27,574 nucleotides of DNA. Source: a virus. Location of the stretch: the IMG/VR virus record IMGVR_UViG_3300037485_001687, positions 1 through 27,574 of that record. The stretch is one strand, 5' to 3'. The translations under genes were made by a program, and so were the position numbers. Shown piece by piece: positions 12,170-21,720 of the stretch (the first letter of the stretch is position 1; each line of letters starts with the position of its first letter). Below the pieces are notes generated by a model. It saw nothing but the letters and a program-made list of their open reading frames with translations, was not told the origin of the DNA and searched no databases.

Positions 12170-12552
12170 AATTGAAAAAGTGAATTTTGGTTTGATAATA
12201 AATGTTTAAATCGTTTATGTAATGGAGCAAAATTGCTCATGATCTCTATTGCCCTTCCGTGATTAGATTCCCATACCTTCTGCATTTCTTTCTCATCTGT
12301 ACTGAACCAGTAACCACCCTGATCTGAAAGAATGAATCCCGGTGCACACAGGTCATTGCGCCTGATGTAACCGATAATCTGCCTCAGCTCTGCATCCCCG
12401 ATGGCAAAACCTCTTTCCCTGAGCTTTACAACTATCTCATTGGACTTAATCTTTCTCTCTGCACTATTGTAATTGGTTGTAAGAGATACCACCAGCAACC
12501 GGGCTGCCCGGATGTGCTTCTCACTGATCATATCGTCAACCCAACTGCTCAT
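12166..12552 (-). CDS. Winged-helix-like small phage protein
   Basis: A 128-residue protein. Residues about 30-85 look like a winged helix: SNEIVVKLRERGFAIGDAEL (helix, turn and recognition-helix pattern), then QIIGYIRRND and a wing GFILSDQGGYWFST. The C-terminal helix (KVWESNHGRAIEIM) resembles helical tails of small Bacteroidota phage DNA-binding proteins. Its ATG overlaps the stop of the SNF2 helicase gene (ATGA), so the two are translationally coupled. A role as helicase partner or DNA-targeting subunit is a guess from position. Confidence 0.65.
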   Translation of the reverse strand: MSSWVDDMISEKHIRAARLLVVSLTTNYNSAERKIKSNEIVVKLRERGFAIGDAELRQIIGYIRRNDLCAPGFILSDQGGYWFSTDEKEMQKVWESNHGRAIEIMSNFAPLHKRFKHLLSNQNSLFQL

Positions 12553-15329
12553 TTCTTCCCGCTGAATAATCCAATTAAATCATCTACCATACTCATCTCA
12601 GTTTGAATATCATTCTCAGCTCCGGTAACCTGAGCCACCATAGCCCGCTTTTTCTCGATGATATTGTAGATGTATTCATCAATAGTATTCTGGCCGAGCA
12701 GGTAGGTACACTGCACACTGTTTTTCTGCCCAATCCTCCAAGCTCTGTCCTCTGCCTGATCAGCGTGCGCCGGATGCCAAGGCAGCTCAATGAATGCCAC
12801 CCTTGATGATGCAGTAAGGGTAATACCTACGCCACCGGATTGAATGTTGCAAATGATCACCTGGCAGTTATGGTTCTTCTGGAAGGCATCCACGTTCCTT
12901 TGCCGCTGATCCATACTATCATCACCGATAACTGTAACGGATCCTGGAATAGCCTGTTTCAATTCAGCCACAACGTCTTTATGTGTTGCGAATACAATAA
13001 TCTTCTCACCAGCTTCCACCACTTCACGGATCTGTTCAATCATAGCATCGATCTTACCTTTGGCAGATAGTTTTTTAAGGATACCCATCTTTACCATGGC
13101 TTCACCACGTAGAGCTGTGGAAATTTCACCTTCTGTCTTGTTAAGGTTATCACGTAAGAAACTGATGAACTCAGCCTCCGCTTTGTCGTAATCTTTCCTT
13201 GTAGTGATTTCGCATGATACGATTGAGCGCATCTTGTCTGGAAGATTATTAAGCACTTCCTTTTTTAAGCGGCGGAAAAAACAAGTTTTGTTGAGAAAGT
13301 AATTCAGCTCTTTAAGGTTTGAGGATTGATTGAAACCCTGGCAATACCTATCGGTAAATCCTTTGTAGCCGCCAAACTCACCGAGCCTGCCAATAATCTG
13401 GAGCTGTGCCAGTAGGTCCATGGGCTTATTCACTACTGGCGTACCGGTCAGCCCGATGATATACTCCTTATCCTTGGCAATACCCATGCAAAACTTTGAA
13501 AGCTGTGTTTTATAGTCCTTGCAATTAGAAACAAGAATGCCGTCTGCGAAGTAGTTGTGGTTATCGGCTATTTCAAGATCATAAACGATCTTATTTTTGA
13601 TAGAACTGTAGGCATATTCATGAGTACATCTTGGTTGGTGAATCGTAACACTTTCCACCCTAACGCATTCAATATTTCCGTTTTTCTTTTGTCCAAAAAC
13701 TTCCATTTTTTGGTGCTGTGGCTCTGCCCATCCACCTCTATTGCTAATTTTATTTCTTCTATTCCAATATCTACTTTGTAGCAACTTGGCAGGCTTTGAA
13801 ACAAATCCTTTACTGGCTTCGTTTTTATAGGAAACTCCATTGCTGATTCCGGTAAATCTAAAGCGGCTAATAGAGTTATCTGTGGAACAGTCGCTTTGCC
13901 ATTCCCTCCTCTTGAAAGAAATGTTTTTCCGACATTGGCTAATCTTACCTTTTCCGAAATTTCTGGCTTGTGCATTGGATTGTTGAACTTCATTCTTTCT
14001 GAATGCATTTCTCTCAATAACGGATTTTGCATTTGCTTCAATGCGCTTTGTCTTAATTTCTCTGCTCTTATTGGATTTTGATTCATTAAAAGCGCTTCCG
14101 GTTGGGCCATTCTCCACTTGGCTGAGCAGCTCTGTGTGCAAAATCTTATTTTCTCTGATTGCTTGCCTCTTGAAAGCCTGGTGAAAGGCTGATTGCAAAA
14201 GGCGCATATTTTTTGAAGCAAAGGCTTTGCGTTGGCTTTTTTTATTGCTTCTTTTACATGAGGCAGTGTATTCACATGCTTCCCTGCGCAAGTTCTCGAG
14301 CAGTATTGAACTGTTGCTTTCCCGGCCTTGGGAGTATAGAAAATCTTCTGACAATAAACACAATTCTTCTCCAGCTTCAATTTCACATACCTCTTTCTTC
14401 CGTCCGGTAGAGAGATAAATTTTGTGGTTGCCCGTGGCGTAGAGCTCTCCTTTATCATGCCTGATGCGGTATAATTTTCTATCTCCAAGATCATTTTTCC
14501 AAAGGTTTTTAATTTTTTTTAAAGATACTTTATTTGTAAAAGTGTTGTAAGAGGCAACAAGTAATCCAGATAGCCCTTGTTCAACAATTTCTCCAATTTG
14601 AATCCATCCTCTGTTAGTTAAAATTTTTGACTCATAGGGCAAACACCTGTGCATCTCATCGATCACAACGGCATCGAATAGGTCAATAGTTTCTTTGAAT
14701 ATGATATGGTTCAGGCGGAGCGGTTTATCTTCCGGCTTATTGATGGCTTGAACGAAATACTTTTTTAAGGATTCATAATTGCAGATGAACACATTGATCA
14801 TTCCCACTTTATAGTATTGTGGCCAGGTGTTTTTTACCCGGTCATTAAGCACCATGGCATCTTTACCTGTCCACATCTTCCATTCCCGCTTCCAGTTCTC
14901 TTTTAGTGTAGCGGGGCAGATAACCAGGATACATTTTGCCCCGGCACCGGTTAGTGTGGCAATGGTTTGCGCTGTCTTGCCAAGGCCCATATCATCACCG
15001 TTAATGATTCTCTTCTTATTGATTCCGTATGCCACTCCATTGCGCTGGTAGGGGAACAGGCTCATCTTTAGCGGGATGTCAATAGTAAGCTCAGGCAGTG
15101 GCTCTATCTCTCCAATTTCAAGTGCTGCTGGCTTTGTAGATACATTGCCATTGATGCCCTTTGCCCAATTCAGAAGAGCTCCACCGCTGCTGGCTGGTAC
15201 CCACCAGAATTTCTTTCCATCGTTCTGGCGAAACTCAGCTCCGGGGATTTGCTTGATAGCTTCCACCAACCAAGGCTTATCCTGGAAGGTTACTTGATAT
15301 CCATTATTGGTTTCTAAAATGTCGAGCAT
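12549..15329 (-). CDS. SNF2-family DNA helicase/translocase interrupted by an intein
   Basis: A 926-residue precursor; removal of residues 229-602 would leave 552. Residues 1-60 are a small N-terminal domain (FRQNDGKKFWWVPASSGGA) like those on phage and SMARCAL1-type SNF2 proteins. The ATPase core shows Walker A, GDDMGLGKT (111-119), and a DExH box, VVIDEMHR (221-228). The intein begins at C229 directly after the DExH box, and the extein resumes at C603 (CKDYKTQ), so the spliced box reads DEMHRCKDYKT as in SNF2 proteins. Then come LTGTP (627-631) and motifs V and VI, SGGVGITLTA (831-840) and DQAEDRAWRIGQ (857-868). It probably remodels replication or recombination intermediates. It ends with an ATGA overlap to the next gene and starts 2 bases after the ParB-like gene. 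Confidence 0.95.
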   Translation of the reverse strand: MLDILETNNGYQVTFQDKPWLVEAIKQIPGAEFRQNDGKKFWWVPASSGGALLNWAKGINGNVSTKPAALEIGEIEPLPELTIDIPLKMSLFPYQRNGVAYGINKKRIINGDDMGLGKTAQTIATLTGAGAKCILVICPATLKENWKREWKMWTGKDAMVLNDRVKNTWPQYYKVGMINVFICNYESLKKYFVQAINKPEDKPLRLNHIIFKETIDLFDAVVIDEMHRCLPYESKILTNRGWIQIGEIVEQGLSGLLVASYNTFTNKVSLKKIKNLWKNDLGDRKLYRIRHDKGELYATGNHKIYLSTGRKKEVCEIEAGEELCLLSEDFLYSQGRESNSSILLENLRREACEYTASCKRSNKKSQRKAFASKNMRLLQSAFHQAFKRQAIRENKILHTELLSQVENGPTGSAFNESKSNKSREIKTKRIEANAKSVIERNAFRKNEVQQSNAQARNFGKGKISQCRKNISFKRREWQSDCSTDNSISRFRFTGISNGVSYKNEASKGFVSKPAKLLQSRYWNRRNKISNRGGWAEPQHQKMEVFGQKKNGNIECVRVESVTIHQPRCTHEYAYSSIKNKIVYDLEIADNHNYFADGILVSNCKDYKTQLSKFCMGIAKDKEYIIGLTGTPVVNKPMDLLAQLQIIGRLGEFGGYKGFTDRYCQGFNQSSNLKELNYFLNKTCFFRRLKKEVLNNLPDKMRSIVSCEITTRKDYDKAEAEFISFLRDNLNKTEGEISTALRGEAMVKMGILKKLSAKGKIDAMIEQIREVVEAGEKIIVFATHKDVVAELKQAIPGSVTVIGDDSMDQRQRNVDAFQKNHNCQVIICNIQSGGVGITLTASSRVAFIELPWHPAHADQAEDRAWRIGQKNSVQCTYLLGQNTIDEYIYNIIEKKRAMVAQVTGAENDIQTEMSMVDDLIGLFSGKK
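13524..14645 (-). mobile_element. Hint-type intein in the SNF2 DExH box
   Basis: The 374-residue intein covers residues 229-602 of the helicase frame. Block A is CLPYESKILT with Cys1; block B is YATGNHKIYL with T299 and H302. Blocks F and G are VYDLEIADNHNYFADG and ILVSN, followed by Cys603 as the +1 nucleophile. The residue before the terminal Asn is Ser rather than the commoner His, which many active inteins tolerate. Splicing domains occupy about residues 229-330 and 553-602. The 220 residues between them are Ser/Asn/Lys/Arg-rich, with no LAGLIDADG or HNH motif in this frame. That stretch overlaps a complete endonuclease gene in the +1 frame. All residues needed for cis-splicing appear present. 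Confidence 0.93.
13568..14494 (-). CDS. Vsr/EDxHD-like homing endonuclease nested out of frame in the intein
   Basis: A 308-residue protein on the same strand as the intein but in its +1 frame. Two zinc knuckles are plain: C45xxC48...C65xxxC69 and C97xxC100...C119xxxC123, likely for DNA binding. A basic, Asn/Met-rich linker with NNPMHKPEISEK (171-182) resembles the short repeated DNA-binding motifs of homing endonucleases. The catalytic domain shows KVDIGI (D242), AIEVDGQSH (E253, D255, H259), a KFLDKRKTEIL helix (D268) and GWKVLRFT (279-286), the Vsr/DUF559/EDxHD core. ATG 14494 has an A-rich leader, and a weak -7-like box, TATCTTTA, lies at 14527-14520. It would cut intein-less SNF2 genes and spread the intein. 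It fully overlaps the splicing protein, which is highly unusual. Confidence 0.9.
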   Translation of the reverse strand: MILEIENYTASGMIKESSTPRATTKFISLPDGRKRYVKLKLEKNCVYCQKIFYTPKAGKATVQYCSRTCAGKHVNTLPHVKEAIKKANAKPLLQKICAFCNQPFTRLSRGKQSEKIRFCTQSCSAKWRMAQPEALLMNQNPIRAEKLRQSALKQMQNPLLREMHSERMKFNNPMHKPEISEKVRLANVGKTFLSRGGNGKATVPQITLLAALDLPESAMEFPIKTKPVKDLFQSLPSCYKVDIGIEEIKLAIEVDGQSHSTKKWKFLDKRKTEILNALGWKVLRFTNQDVLMNMPTVLSKIRSFMILK

Positions 15330-18163: not shown

Positions 18164-18819
18164 CAGGCTGCATTTTTAAAGTCCCCGAATAGGTACCAGT
18201 AACGAAATGCCAACTCCTGATACTTCTCTTTGCCTCTGCTAAAAATCGCATCGCCTCTTTTAACCGGCACCTTGAAAATCTTGTGGTTCACCTTACTGAT
18301 GGCAATGAACATGAAATTGTTTTTCCCTTCCAGGTCCATGTACCAAGCCGCCTGTCTGTCATAGCTATATTTATCAATCGTTTCCTCAAATGCTTTCTGT
18401 GTGGTGCAGGATGTTGTTTTCAGGTCTCCGGATAAATCAATTTTGTCTGCATAGAAATCCCATTTGGCTCTGGCCGGCAATGAAAATTTGAATCCGTTGT
18501 AATCAATCTCAAAATCAGGTTTGATGGTAACCTTCTGCATGCTGCACTGAGCAGCCAACGCTTTACAAAAAGGATCTGCAAAAAATACTTTCTTCATTGT
18601 TACAGCCTTTTCAAACTCTGCTTTCTCGAATGTTTTTCCGGCCACGGTGAGGTTAAAGTAATTCACTGTGTGATTTTCAGTTATCATTGCATCTAATAAA
18701 CTACCAAATCGGTACGCTGCCTCTAAATCAATAATGATCTGTTGTGGCAGCCAATATTTCTCAAGCCAACTAAGCTCAGAGTTTGACACTTCGGGTCTGT
18801 TGTAATAATTAGTTTCCAT
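18163..18819 (-). CDS. RecE/YqaJ-like PD-(D/E)XK exonuclease
   Basis: A 218-residue protein from ATG 18819 (METNYYNRPEVSNSELSWLE). An upstream ATG at 18858 would add 13 residues that overlap the HNH gene further, so it is rejected. The N-terminal NSELSWLEKYW and YRFGSLLDAMI (about residues 11-55) are typical of RecE/PDDEXK_16 proteins. The catalytic strand pair reads IDLSGDLKTTS (about 127-137, with D and K), followed by SYDRQAAWYMD (about 151-161), the conserved helix of lambda-exonuclease-fold enzymes. It degrades one strand from ends so that RecT can anneal the other. It follows the HNH gene with an 11-base overlap, so the ancestral neighbour was probably the coiled-coil gene at 19348. Confidence 0.9.
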   Translation of the reverse strand: METNYYNRPEVSNSELSWLEKYWLPQQIIIDLEAAYRFGSLLDAMITENHTVNYFNLTVAGKTFEKAEFEKAVTMKKVFFADPFCKALAAQCSMQKVTIKPDFEIDYNGFKFSLPARAKWDFYADKIDLSGDLKTTSCTTQKAFEETIDKYSYDRQAAWYMDLEGKNNFMFIAISKVNHKIFKVPVKRGDAIFSRGKEKYQELAFRYWYLFGDFKNAA

Positions 18820-19348
18820 ATTCCCATTTGAAGCCGCCAGCAGTTGCTCTCTGCCCACGACAAACTTTAATAATATTTTGATGCGGTATTCCTGTTATCA
18901 TTTTCGCCTGCTGTGAGCTATCGTATTGCTCAATGAAATTTCCTGATAAGTCCTGTTGAATAACTTTTACAGATCTGTTATGATCAGCGCCTTTTTTGCC
19001 AGTCCATACTTTTGGAGACACCCTTAATCCATTTTTATAAGCGTGTATATCATTTTCAGAAGAGGTTACCCATTCAAGGTTTTCAACTTTGTTATTTGCC
19101 TTATCACCATCCTTATGATTCACTACTGATTTATTGCCAGGATTAGAAATGAATGCTATTGCTACAACCCTATGAACTCTGAAATGATTTTTTTTATTAT
19201 TATCCGATAAGCATATGTACACATAGCCATTCTTCTTAAAATTCAACTTCATAAGGCATGGCACAGTAGTTTTTACACTTCTGATATTGCCGAAATTTGA
19301 AACTTCATAAACTCCTTCATATCCTTGAATGGGCAACCAATTTTCCAT
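18809..19348 (-). CDS. HNH homing endonuclease (NUMOD4-HNH-NUMOD1 type)
   Basis: A 179-residue protein. NUMOD4 at residues 1-30 (WLPIQGYEGVYEVSNFGNIR) is followed by an HNH_3 domain at about 55-100 (FRVHRVVAIAFI, VVNHKDGDKANN, NLEWVTSSEN) with the catalytic H and N positions present. A NUMOD1-like DNA-binding region follows (SVKVIQQDLSG, SSQQAKMITG, then a C-terminal WEYGN). It is a free-standing homing endonuclease that has landed between two recombination genes. The junctions are neat: TAATG with the upstream stop and an 11-base overlap downstream, so neither neighbour is broken. It has no intron around it. Confidence 0.95.
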   Translation of the reverse strand: MENWLPIQGYEGVYEVSNFGNIRSVKTTVPCLMKLNFKKNGYVYICLSDNNKKNHFRVHRVVAIAFISNPGNKSVVNHKDGDKANNKVENLEWVTSSENDIHAYKNGLRVSPKVWTGKKGADHNRSVKVIQQDLSGNFIEQYDSSQQAKMITGIPHQNIIKVCRGQRATAGGFKWEYGN

Positions 19349-20718
19349 TATGCTTTTGCTTTGCGGTTTACGGCTTTATAGGTTTCGTTGTACTGCAGGA
19401 ACTTGCTATCTATCTTCATCCCGGCTTTGTGGGCCTCTTTCTCTGCCCAGGCTTTCATCTGGTCAAGCTTGGTATTGCCAATTTTATCTACCGGCAAATC
19501 CTTACCCACCTTTTCAAACCATAAAGCAAAGATTTGAGTGAAGCCAACCGGATGGAGAACAGTAATTTCATAGCCCTGCTTTGTTTCAGGTGCATCCACC
19601 GATTCAGCAACAGCGGCCTCTTTTTCAAACATCACCATAGTCTGCTCACCTTGCTTTTTGATATCGGCATCCATATCTGCTTTCCTCTTAGCCTCAGCAG
19701 CTTCTTCTGCAAGCCGGGCTGATTCAGCAGATTCTCTGTCAGCTTTCTCTTTCTCAGCAGCATCCTGTTGGGCTTTCCTTTGAGCAGCCTCATCTGCTTC
19801 TTTTTTGCGGGCCTGCTCTGCAGCGGCTTCCAGTTTTTTCTTCTCAGCTTCATTGGCTTTTGCAATAGCTTCCAACCTTTCTTTCTCTGCCTGGCGGGCT
19901 TTAAGTTCAGCCTGATAGGCTTCATCAGCCAACCGCTTTGCTTCGAGCAATTCAGCTTTTTTGGATGGAAGTTTTTCAATGATATCATCCCGGTGTATGG
20001 TAAGTTCAGCAATGGCACTGTTTTGGAAGTCGGGTAAAAGCTCGTTGTATTTAGCCATTTCAATGGCATGAGTTTCTCCGGCTAAATGATAGCGGACAAA
20101 TGCTAAATGGTGCACTTGACAAGGCTCCCAATTCACAACAATCTTTGCCTGAGTAAGTCTCTGCTCACCCTCATCGAAGGTTTCCAGTGTAAGGCCGTTG
20201 AAGAATTTCGTCATAGCCATTTTTTTTCCAAGCAGCCATTCGTTGAACTGTTCATTGAGCATCTTTTCGGCATGCGAAGCAATTTCAATAGCCTCATTCT
20301 TTTTTGCCGCCTCAATCTCAGCGGCCCTACGCCTTGCTTCTGCTTCCTCAGCGATTTGCCTGGCATAAGCATCACGCTGCTCTTGGATGAGTGCAGGTAC
20401 TGTACCAGCTTTTTTGATGTCAAGATCATTCTCGACCACGGTGTACATCTTTTTAAGCTCATCCATGATCTGAGTAACAGCAGCCCTTTCCTCCTTCATT
20501 TCTTTTCCGGCTTTATTAATGTTCACCAGATAATTCTTTGCTCTTTCATCAAGCTCCGGAGTCATGCCGGTTTCCTGAATGGTAGAAAGGATATTGCGAC
20601 CAACGGCGAGAGCTTTCTCAGCTCTCTGTTGGTTGGTCGCAAGTATTTGCGGGCCAGTTTTAAGGACCTCAATAGAGTTCTCGATAACTGCCACCTGATT
20701 GGTTTGTGTTGTTTCCAT
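19348..20718 (-). CDS. Large coiled-coil protein between RecT and exonuclease
   Basis: A 456-residue protein. Residues about 30-165 and 275-365 are long Ala/Glu/Lys/Gln-rich heptad regions. Between them a mixed domain (about 165-265) contains NGLTLETFDEGEQRL and WEPCQVHHLAFV. A C-terminal globular piece (about 380-456) follows, with KQGYEITVLHPVGFTQIFAL. The layout, coiled coil with a C-terminal DNA-recombination-like domain next to recT, recalls phage proteins of the DUF1351 or Gp-like group found beside RecT and exonucleases. A tether between annealing protein, exonuclease and single-stranded DNA is a reasonable guess. The low-complexity region makes distant family assignment by eye unreliable. 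Confidence 0.75.
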   Translation of the reverse strand: METTQTNQVAVIENSIEVLKTGPQILATNQQRAEKALAVGRNILSTIQETGMTPELDERAKNYLVNINKAGKEMKEERAAVTQIMDELKKMYTVVENDLDIKKAGTVPALIQEQRDAYARQIAEEAEARRRAAEIEAAKKNEAIEIASHAEKMLNEQFNEWLLGKKMAMTKFFNGLTLETFDEGEQRLTQAKIVVNWEPCQVHHLAFVRYHLAGETHAIEMAKYNELLPDFQNSAIAELTIHRDDIIEKLPSKKAELLEAKRLADEAYQAELKARQAEKERLEAIAKANEAEKKKLEAAAEQARKKEADEAAQRKAQQDAAEKEKADRESAESARLAEEAAEAKRKADMDADIKKQGEQTMVMFEKEAAVAESVDAPETKQGYEITVLHPVGFTQIFALWFEKVGKDLPVDKIGNTKLDQMKAWAEKEAHKAGMKIDSKFLQYNETYKAVNRKAKA

Positions 20719-20751
20719 GATTTTTTTATTGATTGGGTTTATAAAAATGGT

Positions 20752-21720
20752 TTAGAAATCATCGCTCTCAAAGCTCTTGCCTGCAGGCTCCGCTTTTGGT
20801 GATTTGGTGAAAGAATCATCCGCCACATGCTCAACCGGTGCGGCAGGCTCTACAATCATTGTAGGCTGATAGGTGCCGGTAGCTTCCGGAAGCGATGATG
20901 CTGGTGCCGGCATGGAGCCATTAAGTCCGTAATCAATTTTTGTATTAGCATCGTTTTCTTCATCAACCATCTGGCTTTGCAGTGTTGAGAATTCACCCAT
21001 CCTGATTTTAGGATAAGAGCGGAATGCATGCTTGATAGTTTTTGCCTGAACCATGCCTGGCAATCCATCTGTCCATGCTTTGCTGTTTGGATCCTTGCTG
21101 AACTTCTTCAACTTCATTACCTCTTCAATGCTCAGCACTTTGTAATCCACCGATCCATCCGGACGTTCCAGCCTGATGTAGCAAGCGATGATGTTATCCG
21201 TTTTCCTTGGGAATGCAGCAACGTGATCAAGGAAAGGCTTGTCGTTTCTTGTGCCACAAGAAAACACATCACCTTCATAAACCAGCACCGGATTGTCGGC
21301 ATATTTGATTTGGCCTTGGCGTGTGCGCATCTGCAGCTCACCATACCCACTAATCATTAGTGTGGCCCTTTTCTCCCACTTTGGATTATCCCTGCCTCCC
21401 ACATTTGTATTGAAGCTCACCACGTAGGCATGCTTCATGGAAGGATCAAAGGATAGTCCGTTTACTGCCATGTCGAGAAAGCAACCGTACAGAGATAGTT
21501 TGGTGCAGGCAGCGAGATCCGGCTTATCCTGGATCAGCTTCATGAAGTGGAATTTCTCGGCTTCATATTTCACAGCAGCCTTAGAGTGATCACCGCCATT
21601 CATAACGGTGTAAATGTGCTGAAAACGATCTGCTACTTCTGGAATGTTTGCCAGCTGCGCAGGGGAAGACTGTTCTATTTTCTGAACAATATTCATTTTT
21701 TGATTTACATTTGTGCTCAT
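20752..21720 (-). CDS. recT: RecT-family single-strand annealing protein
   Basis: A 322-residue protein. The core (about residues 30-230) contains typical RecT elements: ALxxCTKLSLYGCFLDMAVN-type text at 71-90 (here AACTKLSLYGCFLDMAVNGL), the strand KRATLMISGYGELQMRTR near 117-134, and the KTIKHAFRSYPKIRMGEF segment near 227-244. The C-terminal 75 residues are Ala/Pro-rich and disordered, ending SFESDDF, an acidic tip with a terminal Phe like SSB tails. It anneals complementary strands during phage replication and recombination, paired with the exonuclease. The gene starts 31 bases after a hairpin (21751-21770). Confidence 0.93.
   Translation of the reverse strand: MSTNVNQKMNIVQKIEQSSPAQLANIPEVADRFQHIYTVMNGGDHSKAAVKYEAEKFHFMKLIQDKPDLAACTKLSLYGCFLDMAVNGLSFDPSMKHAYVVSFNTNVGGRDNPKWEKRATLMISGYGELQMRTRQGQIKYADNPVLVYEGDVFSCGTRNDKPFLDHVAAFPRKTDNIIACYIRLERPDGSVDYKVLSIEEVMKLKKFSKDPNSKAWTDGLPGMVQAKTIKHAFRSYPKIRMGEFSTLQSQMVDEENDANTKIDYGLNGSMPAPASSLPEATGTYQPTMIVEPAAPVEHVADDSFTKSPKAEPAGKSFESDDF

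Follow-up and report, generated by a model that had tools for sequence, protein, structure and literature searches.

A putative homing endonuclease gene hidden in the +1 frame of a phage helicase intein, and related loci in phages and bacteria

Can a single stretch of DNA encode, in two reading frames of the same strand, both a contiguous intein and the endonuclease that would mobilize it? The question is raised by the window analyzed here, the whole of a 27,574-base virus record, whose integrase, repressor, terminase and portal genes identify it as a temperate phage. A first-pass annotation placed on its minus strand an SNF2 frame (12549-15329) and, in a different frame, an overlapping ORF (13568-14494), described as a complete nuclease gene lying out of frame within a continuous, apparently splicing-competent intein. 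Both ORFs are found at these positions, the former encoding 926 amino acids, and the arrangement proves to be conserved at about 100 loci. The features of the locus are collected in Table 1. The reading favored here, which we consider very probable, is that of a mobile intein with its homing endonuclease overprinted in the +1 frame as a separate, internally initiated gene.

Table 1. Coordinates of the helicase, intein and nuclease features in the window.
Feature	Position	Strand	Remarks
SNF2 helicase N-extein	14646..15329	-	ends ...VVIDEMHR (motif II / Walker B)
Contiguous intein	13524..14645	-	374 aa, C1...N374, +1 Cys
Intein N-terminal splicing segment	14349..14645	-	residues 1-99; block A C1, block B T71-x-x-H74
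Intein-frame linker	13686..14348	-	residues 100-320; overprints the nuclease gene; open, protein unconserved
Intein C-terminal splicing segment	13524..13673	-	residues 325-374; VYDLEIADNHNYFADGILVSN, blocks F/G
SNF2 helicase C-extein	12549..13523	-	begins CKDYKTQ
Nuclease ORF as listed	13568..14494	-	308 aa, +1 frame
Probable true nuclease gene	13568..14386	-	272 codons from GTG 14386 or 270 from TTG 14380; placed from relatives' starts
Shine-Dalgarno-like AAAGAGG	14390..14396	-	putative, weak; 9 nt 5' of TTG 14380, 3 nt 5' of GTG 14386
First Cys4 zinc knuckle	14288..14362	-	CVYC...CSRTC
Second Cys4 zinc knuckle	14126..14206	-	CAFC...CTQSC; C61, C64, C83, C87 invariant in 63 aligned nucleases
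Vsr/EDxHD-fold catalytic core	13634..13780	-	YKVD...IEVDGQSH...DKRK...GWKVLRFTN
Nuclease TAG stop	13568-13570	-	within block F codons

Pfam analysis of the SNF2 frame returns SNF2-rel_dom (E 2e-21), Helicase_C (E 6e-13) and, above the cut-off, the Intein_splicing family PF14890 (E 2e-10). The insertion is in frame and intein-free alleles exist: three relatives (L014-L016, with 86-93% identity over the best segment) possess an uninterrupted helicase gene, and excision of 13524-14645 in silico restores a helicase of 552 aa. The +1 Cys reported in the first-pass annotation is present in the window, whereas the empty alleles harbor a Thr at this position. The complete set of splicing residues can be identified, namely a nucleophile at position 1, the block B TxxH, a C-terminal Asn and a +1 Cys/Ser/Thr. 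Among 20 aligned inteins C1, T71 and H74 are invariant; the terminal Asn and the +1 Cys are likewise invariant, and the penultimate residue is a Ser and not a His. The AlphaFold model assembles residues 1-99 and 325-374 as a confident Hint domain, with a pLDDT over 90 for the N-terminal segment, while the linker is predicted with low confidence (pLDDT mostly 40-74). This model superimposes on the splicing domain of the Mtu RecA intein (Z 21.2, 136 residues, rmsd 1.5), as expected for a Hint fold. The layout of a split intein, with its halves in separate ORFs, is not found in the window, where a single frame is open from 15329 to 12549.

The C-terminal end of the nuclease frame matches DUF559 (Pfam, E 2e-13). 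With residues counted from GTG 14386, the invariant core positions among 63 sequences are D206, E217, D219, G220, H223, D232, K235, G243, W244, R248, F249 and N251. The AlphaFold model displays a mean pLDDT of 93.8 and a pTM of 0.53, this low value being expected of a nuclease built as beads on a string. Its core matches the solved structures of NGO0050 (PDB ID 3hrl, Z 11.7), I-Bth0305I (Z 10.9) and Vsr (Z 9.9), which, together with the DUF559 match, identify a Vsr-like PD-(D/E)XK catalytic fold. The residues of a candidate EDxHD motif (E217, D219, H223, D232) are all invariant, yet I-Bth0305I aligns different residues at two of these positions. Foldseek comparison with viral models returned DUF559 and HNH-type phage proteins, mostly with poor superpositions.

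The distribution of this arrangement was followed by nuclease searches that yielded 12 viral loci, then 40 phage records and then, with an alignment as query, 80 viral and 80 bacterial loci; all three forward frames were scanned with profiles for the nuclease and for the N- and C-terminal splicing blocks. Both splicing blocks stand beside a strong nuclease match at 102 loci, 87 of them non-redundant, in phages and bacterial contigs. The nuclease frame leads the intein frame by one base at all 102 (on the N side only in L008) and coincides with it at none, a statement limited to loci chosen by their likeness to this nuclease or to the C-block, and not extending to all DUF559 nucleases. Its stop falls within the intein at 87 of 87 loci, most commonly at the conserved Y[DN]LE[IV] of block F. 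The intein frame is free of stops at 101 of the 102 loci, the exception being L008, in which a 52-bp deletion relative to L002 breaks it, and the nuclease frames of L046, L068 and L074 are broken in appearance only, their stops lying 5' of the real starts. An assembly error as the source of the overlap is ruled out by the same layout at 87 non-redundant loci.

Phages of Vibrio, Pseudomonas and Corynebacterium possess this architecture. The bacterial contigs are assigned to Chloroflexota, Planctomycetota, Bacillota, Bacteroidota, Acidobacteriota, Verrucomicrobiota, Myxococcota, Elusimicrobiota, Campylobacterota and others, some of which may be prophages or binning errors. In the actinobacteriophage records of the collection the full nuclease family was not found, Corynebacterium phage phi673 excepted. 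The interrupted genes encode SNF2 helicases, ResIII helicases and DnaX-type clamp loaders, and at the 102 loci the insertion point is nearly always at, or adjoining, the DE of motif II / Walker B. The hidden-frame architecture is therefore widespread and has been missed by annotation: full-length matches in phage records are labeled only as helicase, coil-containing protein, P-loop hydrolase or hypothetical protein. To note, a Polaromonas locus (L097) encodes the nuclease without intein blocks and is probably a relic. The nuclease, Hint and extein distances are correlated in Mantel tests (0.66-0.75), values that neither show nor exclude swapping of modules.

Selection on the two frames was examined at the 85 non-redundant loci by permuting synonymous codons within the nuclease and counting the stops that arise in the intein frame. 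Some 912 such stops are expected and none is observed, the third frame giving 1595. Applied to the window only, shuffling produces a mean of 11.8 stops and none of 2000 shuffles is open, which rules out that the intein frame is open by chance and substantiates the earlier view of a second frame open beyond chance. The avoidance is visible in the codons themselves: a nuclease wobble T preceding an AA, AG or GA codon, which would create an intein stop, occurs in 0 of 1223 cases, as compared to 3561 of 5102 elsewhere. Between close pairs, nuclease codon positions 3, 1 and 2 accumulated 855, 395 and 340 substitutions, respectively, and nearly all pairs show a higher identity in the nuclease than in the linker. 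In the splicing segments, substitutions follow the order 3 > 1 > 2 of the intein frame. The linker gives no sign of a second functional protein, as its identity (0.205) and hydropathy (-1.06) fit the values expected from nuclease constraint and a ban on stops (0.197 and -1.05). As judged from these substitution patterns, purifying selection acts on the nuclease frame and on both splicing blocks, and the 220-residue linker is an overprint, unconstrained save for the absence of stops. Purifying selection in both frames, which the first-pass annotation would take as support for dual coding, thus holds for the nuclease frame and the splicing blocks and fails for the linker protein. The overlap is asymmetric, with an enzyme in one frame and a tolerated tether in the other.

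A second search was performed from the splicing side, with the C-block as query, and shares many contigs with the first; the alignment of the N-half held no stretch conserved enough for a scan. It retrieved 46 inteins with this nuclease, never in frame, and 33 without it. Four of the 46 (L244, L233, L238 and L195) are split, in the order helicase N-half with intein N-half, free-standing nuclease gene, and intein C-half with helicase C-half; in L244 and L195, whose sequences were read through, the intein occupies the DEIHK/C site, equivalent to DEMHR/C in the window. In L218, most of the nuclease has been lost by an in-frame deletion that retained the intein frame. Some of the 33 are canonical inteins with an in-frame LAGLIDADG nuclease, and 12 such controls display 8-42 stops in each other frame. 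Different nucleases are also found hidden: HNH nucleases in the +1 frame of L192, L224 and L235, in L185, again in the +1 frame, a LAGLIDADG_2 nuclease that bears zinc knuckles, and an HNH nuclease in the +2 frame of L228. The intein frame is significantly open in each of these five loci, and the architecture therefore recurs with other nuclease families. In the tree, which has no established root, the split pair lies on a long and uncertainly placed branch, and this placement does not indicate a direction of change between split and contiguous forms. It is plausible, as suggested in the first-pass annotation, that the overlap represents an intermediate between split inteins with a free-standing nuclease and fused ones.

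The start of the nuclease bears on how it would be expressed. The first-pass annotation began the gene at ATG 14494, which is probably the wrong start since the homology of most relatives begins near residue 38-45 of the 308-aa ORF; this ATG sits in the middle of the N-splicing segment, and GTG 14386 or TTG 14380 agree better with the relatives. In the window there is no ATG near the nuclease core and the Shine-Dalgarno sequence is weak. Among the 87 loci, 84 possess an in-frame ATG upstream of the first CxxC, mostly within 20 codons and in many cases with an in-frame stop just 5' of it; in two loci no ATG, GTG or TTG precedes the first CxxC. A strong Shine-Dalgarno (4-11 nt) stands at the nuclease ATG of 25 of the 84 loci, as compared to 20 of 692 internal nuclease ATGs, the former being counted per locus and the latter per ATG. 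In the Vibrio phages, its GAGG falls in the intein codons for Asp-Glu-Val. This pattern of ATGs and Shine-Dalgarno sequences suggests internal initiation as the favored mode. Programmed ribosomal frameshifting from the intein into the nuclease frame, which would fuse the nuclease to the N-splicing segment, is unlikely: it is in line with two co-directional, overlapping frames, with a nuclease frame open upstream to ATG 14494 in the window and with the lack of a strong Shine-Dalgarno in about 70% of the loci, but it does not account for the ATGs ahead of the first CxxC, often isolated by a 5' stop, nor for the enrichment of strong Shine-Dalgarno sequences at these ATGs. In L244 and L195, moreover, a nuclease of the same family stands alone as a gene with a start of its own, and the shift needed is a +1 shift, for which no conserved slippery site was recognized by eye in the start regions read.

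Two other explanations concern the function of either partner. The zinc-binding and catalytic residues kept invariant in 63 nuclease sequences, and synonymous nuclease sites that evolve fastest, make it extremely unlikely that the nuclease is a relic, an in-frame enzyme frameshifted twice and left open by chance or by recent origin. Homing endonucleases do decay after fixation, and the deletion in L218 is an example of a nuclease lost while the intein frame was kept, but the single offset across 102 loci means that the origin cannot be recent. Very unlikely, too, is an intein that does not splice and persists in the helicase as a tolerated loop, as has been suggested for the ShiLan element discussed below. 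Its best arguments are the penultimate Ser in place of His and the Thr at +1 in the empty alleles, indicative of a site not pre-adapted for a Cys-type intein; they are opposed by the conservation of C1, TxxH, the terminal Asn and the +1 nucleophile, by purifying selection on the splicing blocks, and by the fit of the model to solved splicing domains (Z about 21). Furthermore, an unspliced insert of 374 residues in helicase motif II should disable the enzyme.

The overprinted, internally initiated nuclease gene within a mobile intein is thus the preferred reading. Comparative sequence data carry its architecture and conservation, the intein frame kept open and the constraint on the nuclease and splicing blocks; internal initiation, splicing, cleavage and homing are its putative steps. 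From the ATG of the helicase, ribosomes would translate the full 926-codon frame, and the Hint domain, formed by the two conserved segments and the stop-free linker, would self-excise to yield the 552-residue helicase. Initiation within the end of the N-splicing segment, at GTG 14386 or TTG 14380, would produce a free-standing zinc-knuckle endonuclease of the Vsr/EDxHD fold, terminating within block F. Its targets would be alleles lacking the intein, cut at the conserved codons of motif II, whose repair would bring in both genes together. The Thr at +1 in L014-L016 counts against this scheme unless flanking codons were co-converted during homing or these alleles are not the direct target.

On a broader scale, there is a better than even chance that hidden-frame inteins form an old and general class, in which a nuclease gene overprints the linker: the offset of the DUF559/EDxHD type would be fixed across at least 87 divergent loci in phages and in contigs attributed to about ten bacterial phyla, and the HNH and LAGLIDADG types would have arrived separately. 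If so, nuclease and intein are tied by their overlap, since a nuclease mutation must in most cases leave the intein frame intact too, and nuclease expression is freed from the helicase precursor. A single DNA segment would yield two proteins, one to splice and one to cut, and about 220 of its codons would have kept their dual coding despite great divergence. Such loci would provide a natural overprinting system, opposing an enzyme to a frame that merely avoids stops, whose many independent replicates would allow theories of overlapping-gene evolution to be tested. The origin of split inteins becomes directly testable as well, since related genes hold contiguous, split and nuclease-deleted versions side by side, and the nuclease family itself has been overlooked by annotation pipelines.

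Textbook inteins are bifunctional, a single polypeptide both splicing and cutting. The window shares with the canonical LAGLIDADG inteins the Hint domain, a nuclease at the usual insertion point and, sometimes, a second intein in the gene; in those, however, nuclease and splicing domain share one frame and stops abound in the others. The fractured genes attributed to Dassa et al. (2009) reportedly associate split inteins with a free-standing EDxHD endonuclease. They resemble the present locus by the nuclease fold and by an intein in a phage gene, and L195, L233, L238 and L244 share their exact layout, whereas the intein of the window is one continuous ORF that the nuclease overlaps instead of separating two halves. 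The catalytic fold is also that of I-Bth0305I (PDB ID 3r3p; Z 10.9, 92 residues, rmsd 2.9), but this enzyme is borne by a group I intron and its aligned active site reads EVNGVYW instead of EVDGQSH.

The closest parallel is ShiLan (Arsenault, Gosselin, Gogarten 2025, PMC11855218), in which an out-of-frame HNH nuclease is hidden in insertions of phage DNA methylases; the element has been proposed to remain in the protein as a tolerated loop. For frequent overlapping frames in actinobacteriophages, PMC11855218 cites a preprint on non-canonical intein architecture, 10.1101/2025.01.02.630785. This preprint may already describe out-of-frame nucleases in inteins, and priority is uncertain; beyond these two sources, nothing further on such nucleases was found in the open literature. 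The arrangement is less isolated than the first-pass annotation supposed, as out-of-frame nucleases within in-frame phage insertions had been described in PMC11855218, although in an element that lacks an intein. In both systems a phage gene holds an in-frame insertion free of stops, a second frame of which encodes the nuclease, and both appear to be homing elements. In contrast to ShiLan, with its HNH nuclease and no detectable splicing domain, the window possesses a full Hint domain around a nuclease of the DUF559/EDxHD fold.

Nucleases of other families are also hidden out of frame: in five contiguous inteins besides that of the window, a LAGLIDADG_2 or HNH nuclease occupies the second frame, +1 in four cases and +2 in one. 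Most of the hidden nuclease has been lost from a 181-aa intein (L218) by an in-frame deletion that leaves the intein frame open. A Polaromonas glacialis locus (L097) encodes a nuclease of the window's family but shows no intein blocks that could be recognised; this nuclease is probably a relic.

At the +1 position, the intein-free helicase genes of L014-L016 carry Thr codons (about 4690 in L015), in contrast to the Cys of the intein-bearing allele, which suggests that flanking sequence was co-converted with the intein. In some loci a second intein occupies the same helicase gene: in L087 it matches LAGLIDADG_3 (Pfam), and in L002, L004, and L010 the Walker A motif holds, as judged by eye, an extra insert that resembles an intein.

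Elsewhere in the window, an HNH endonuclease (phrog_59, E 3e-47) is encoded by a gene of its own, which adjoins an exonuclease VIII-like gene, with a RecT-like gene nearby. A candidate 231-codon ORF, antisense to a 456-codon ORF, has no family match.

Coordinates of the related inteins, nucleases, and window genes
Feature	Locus	Positions
Split SNF2 intein, window-family nuclease	L244	1607-4532
Same	L195	1092-3921
Same	L233	
Same	L238	
Split intein, TnsA-like or HNH/NUMOD3 nuclease	L229	2353-3432
Same	L250	2668-3462
Same	L251	2471-3451
Contiguous intein, hidden LAGLIDADG_2 or HNH nuclease	L185	2296-3519
Same	L192	3007-3516
Same	L224	2536-3516
Same	L235	2653-3525
Same	L228	835-1482
Reduced intein	L218	3030-3572
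Nuclease without intein blocks	L097	3944-4618
HNH gene	Window	18809-19348 (-)
231-codon ORF	Window	20107-20802 (+)
456-codon ORF	Window	19348-20718

The split inteins listed here harbor a nuclease gene between their halves. In four split SNF2 inteins, inserted at the site equivalent to that of the window, this free-standing nuclease belongs to the window's family; three further split inteins enclose other nucleases.
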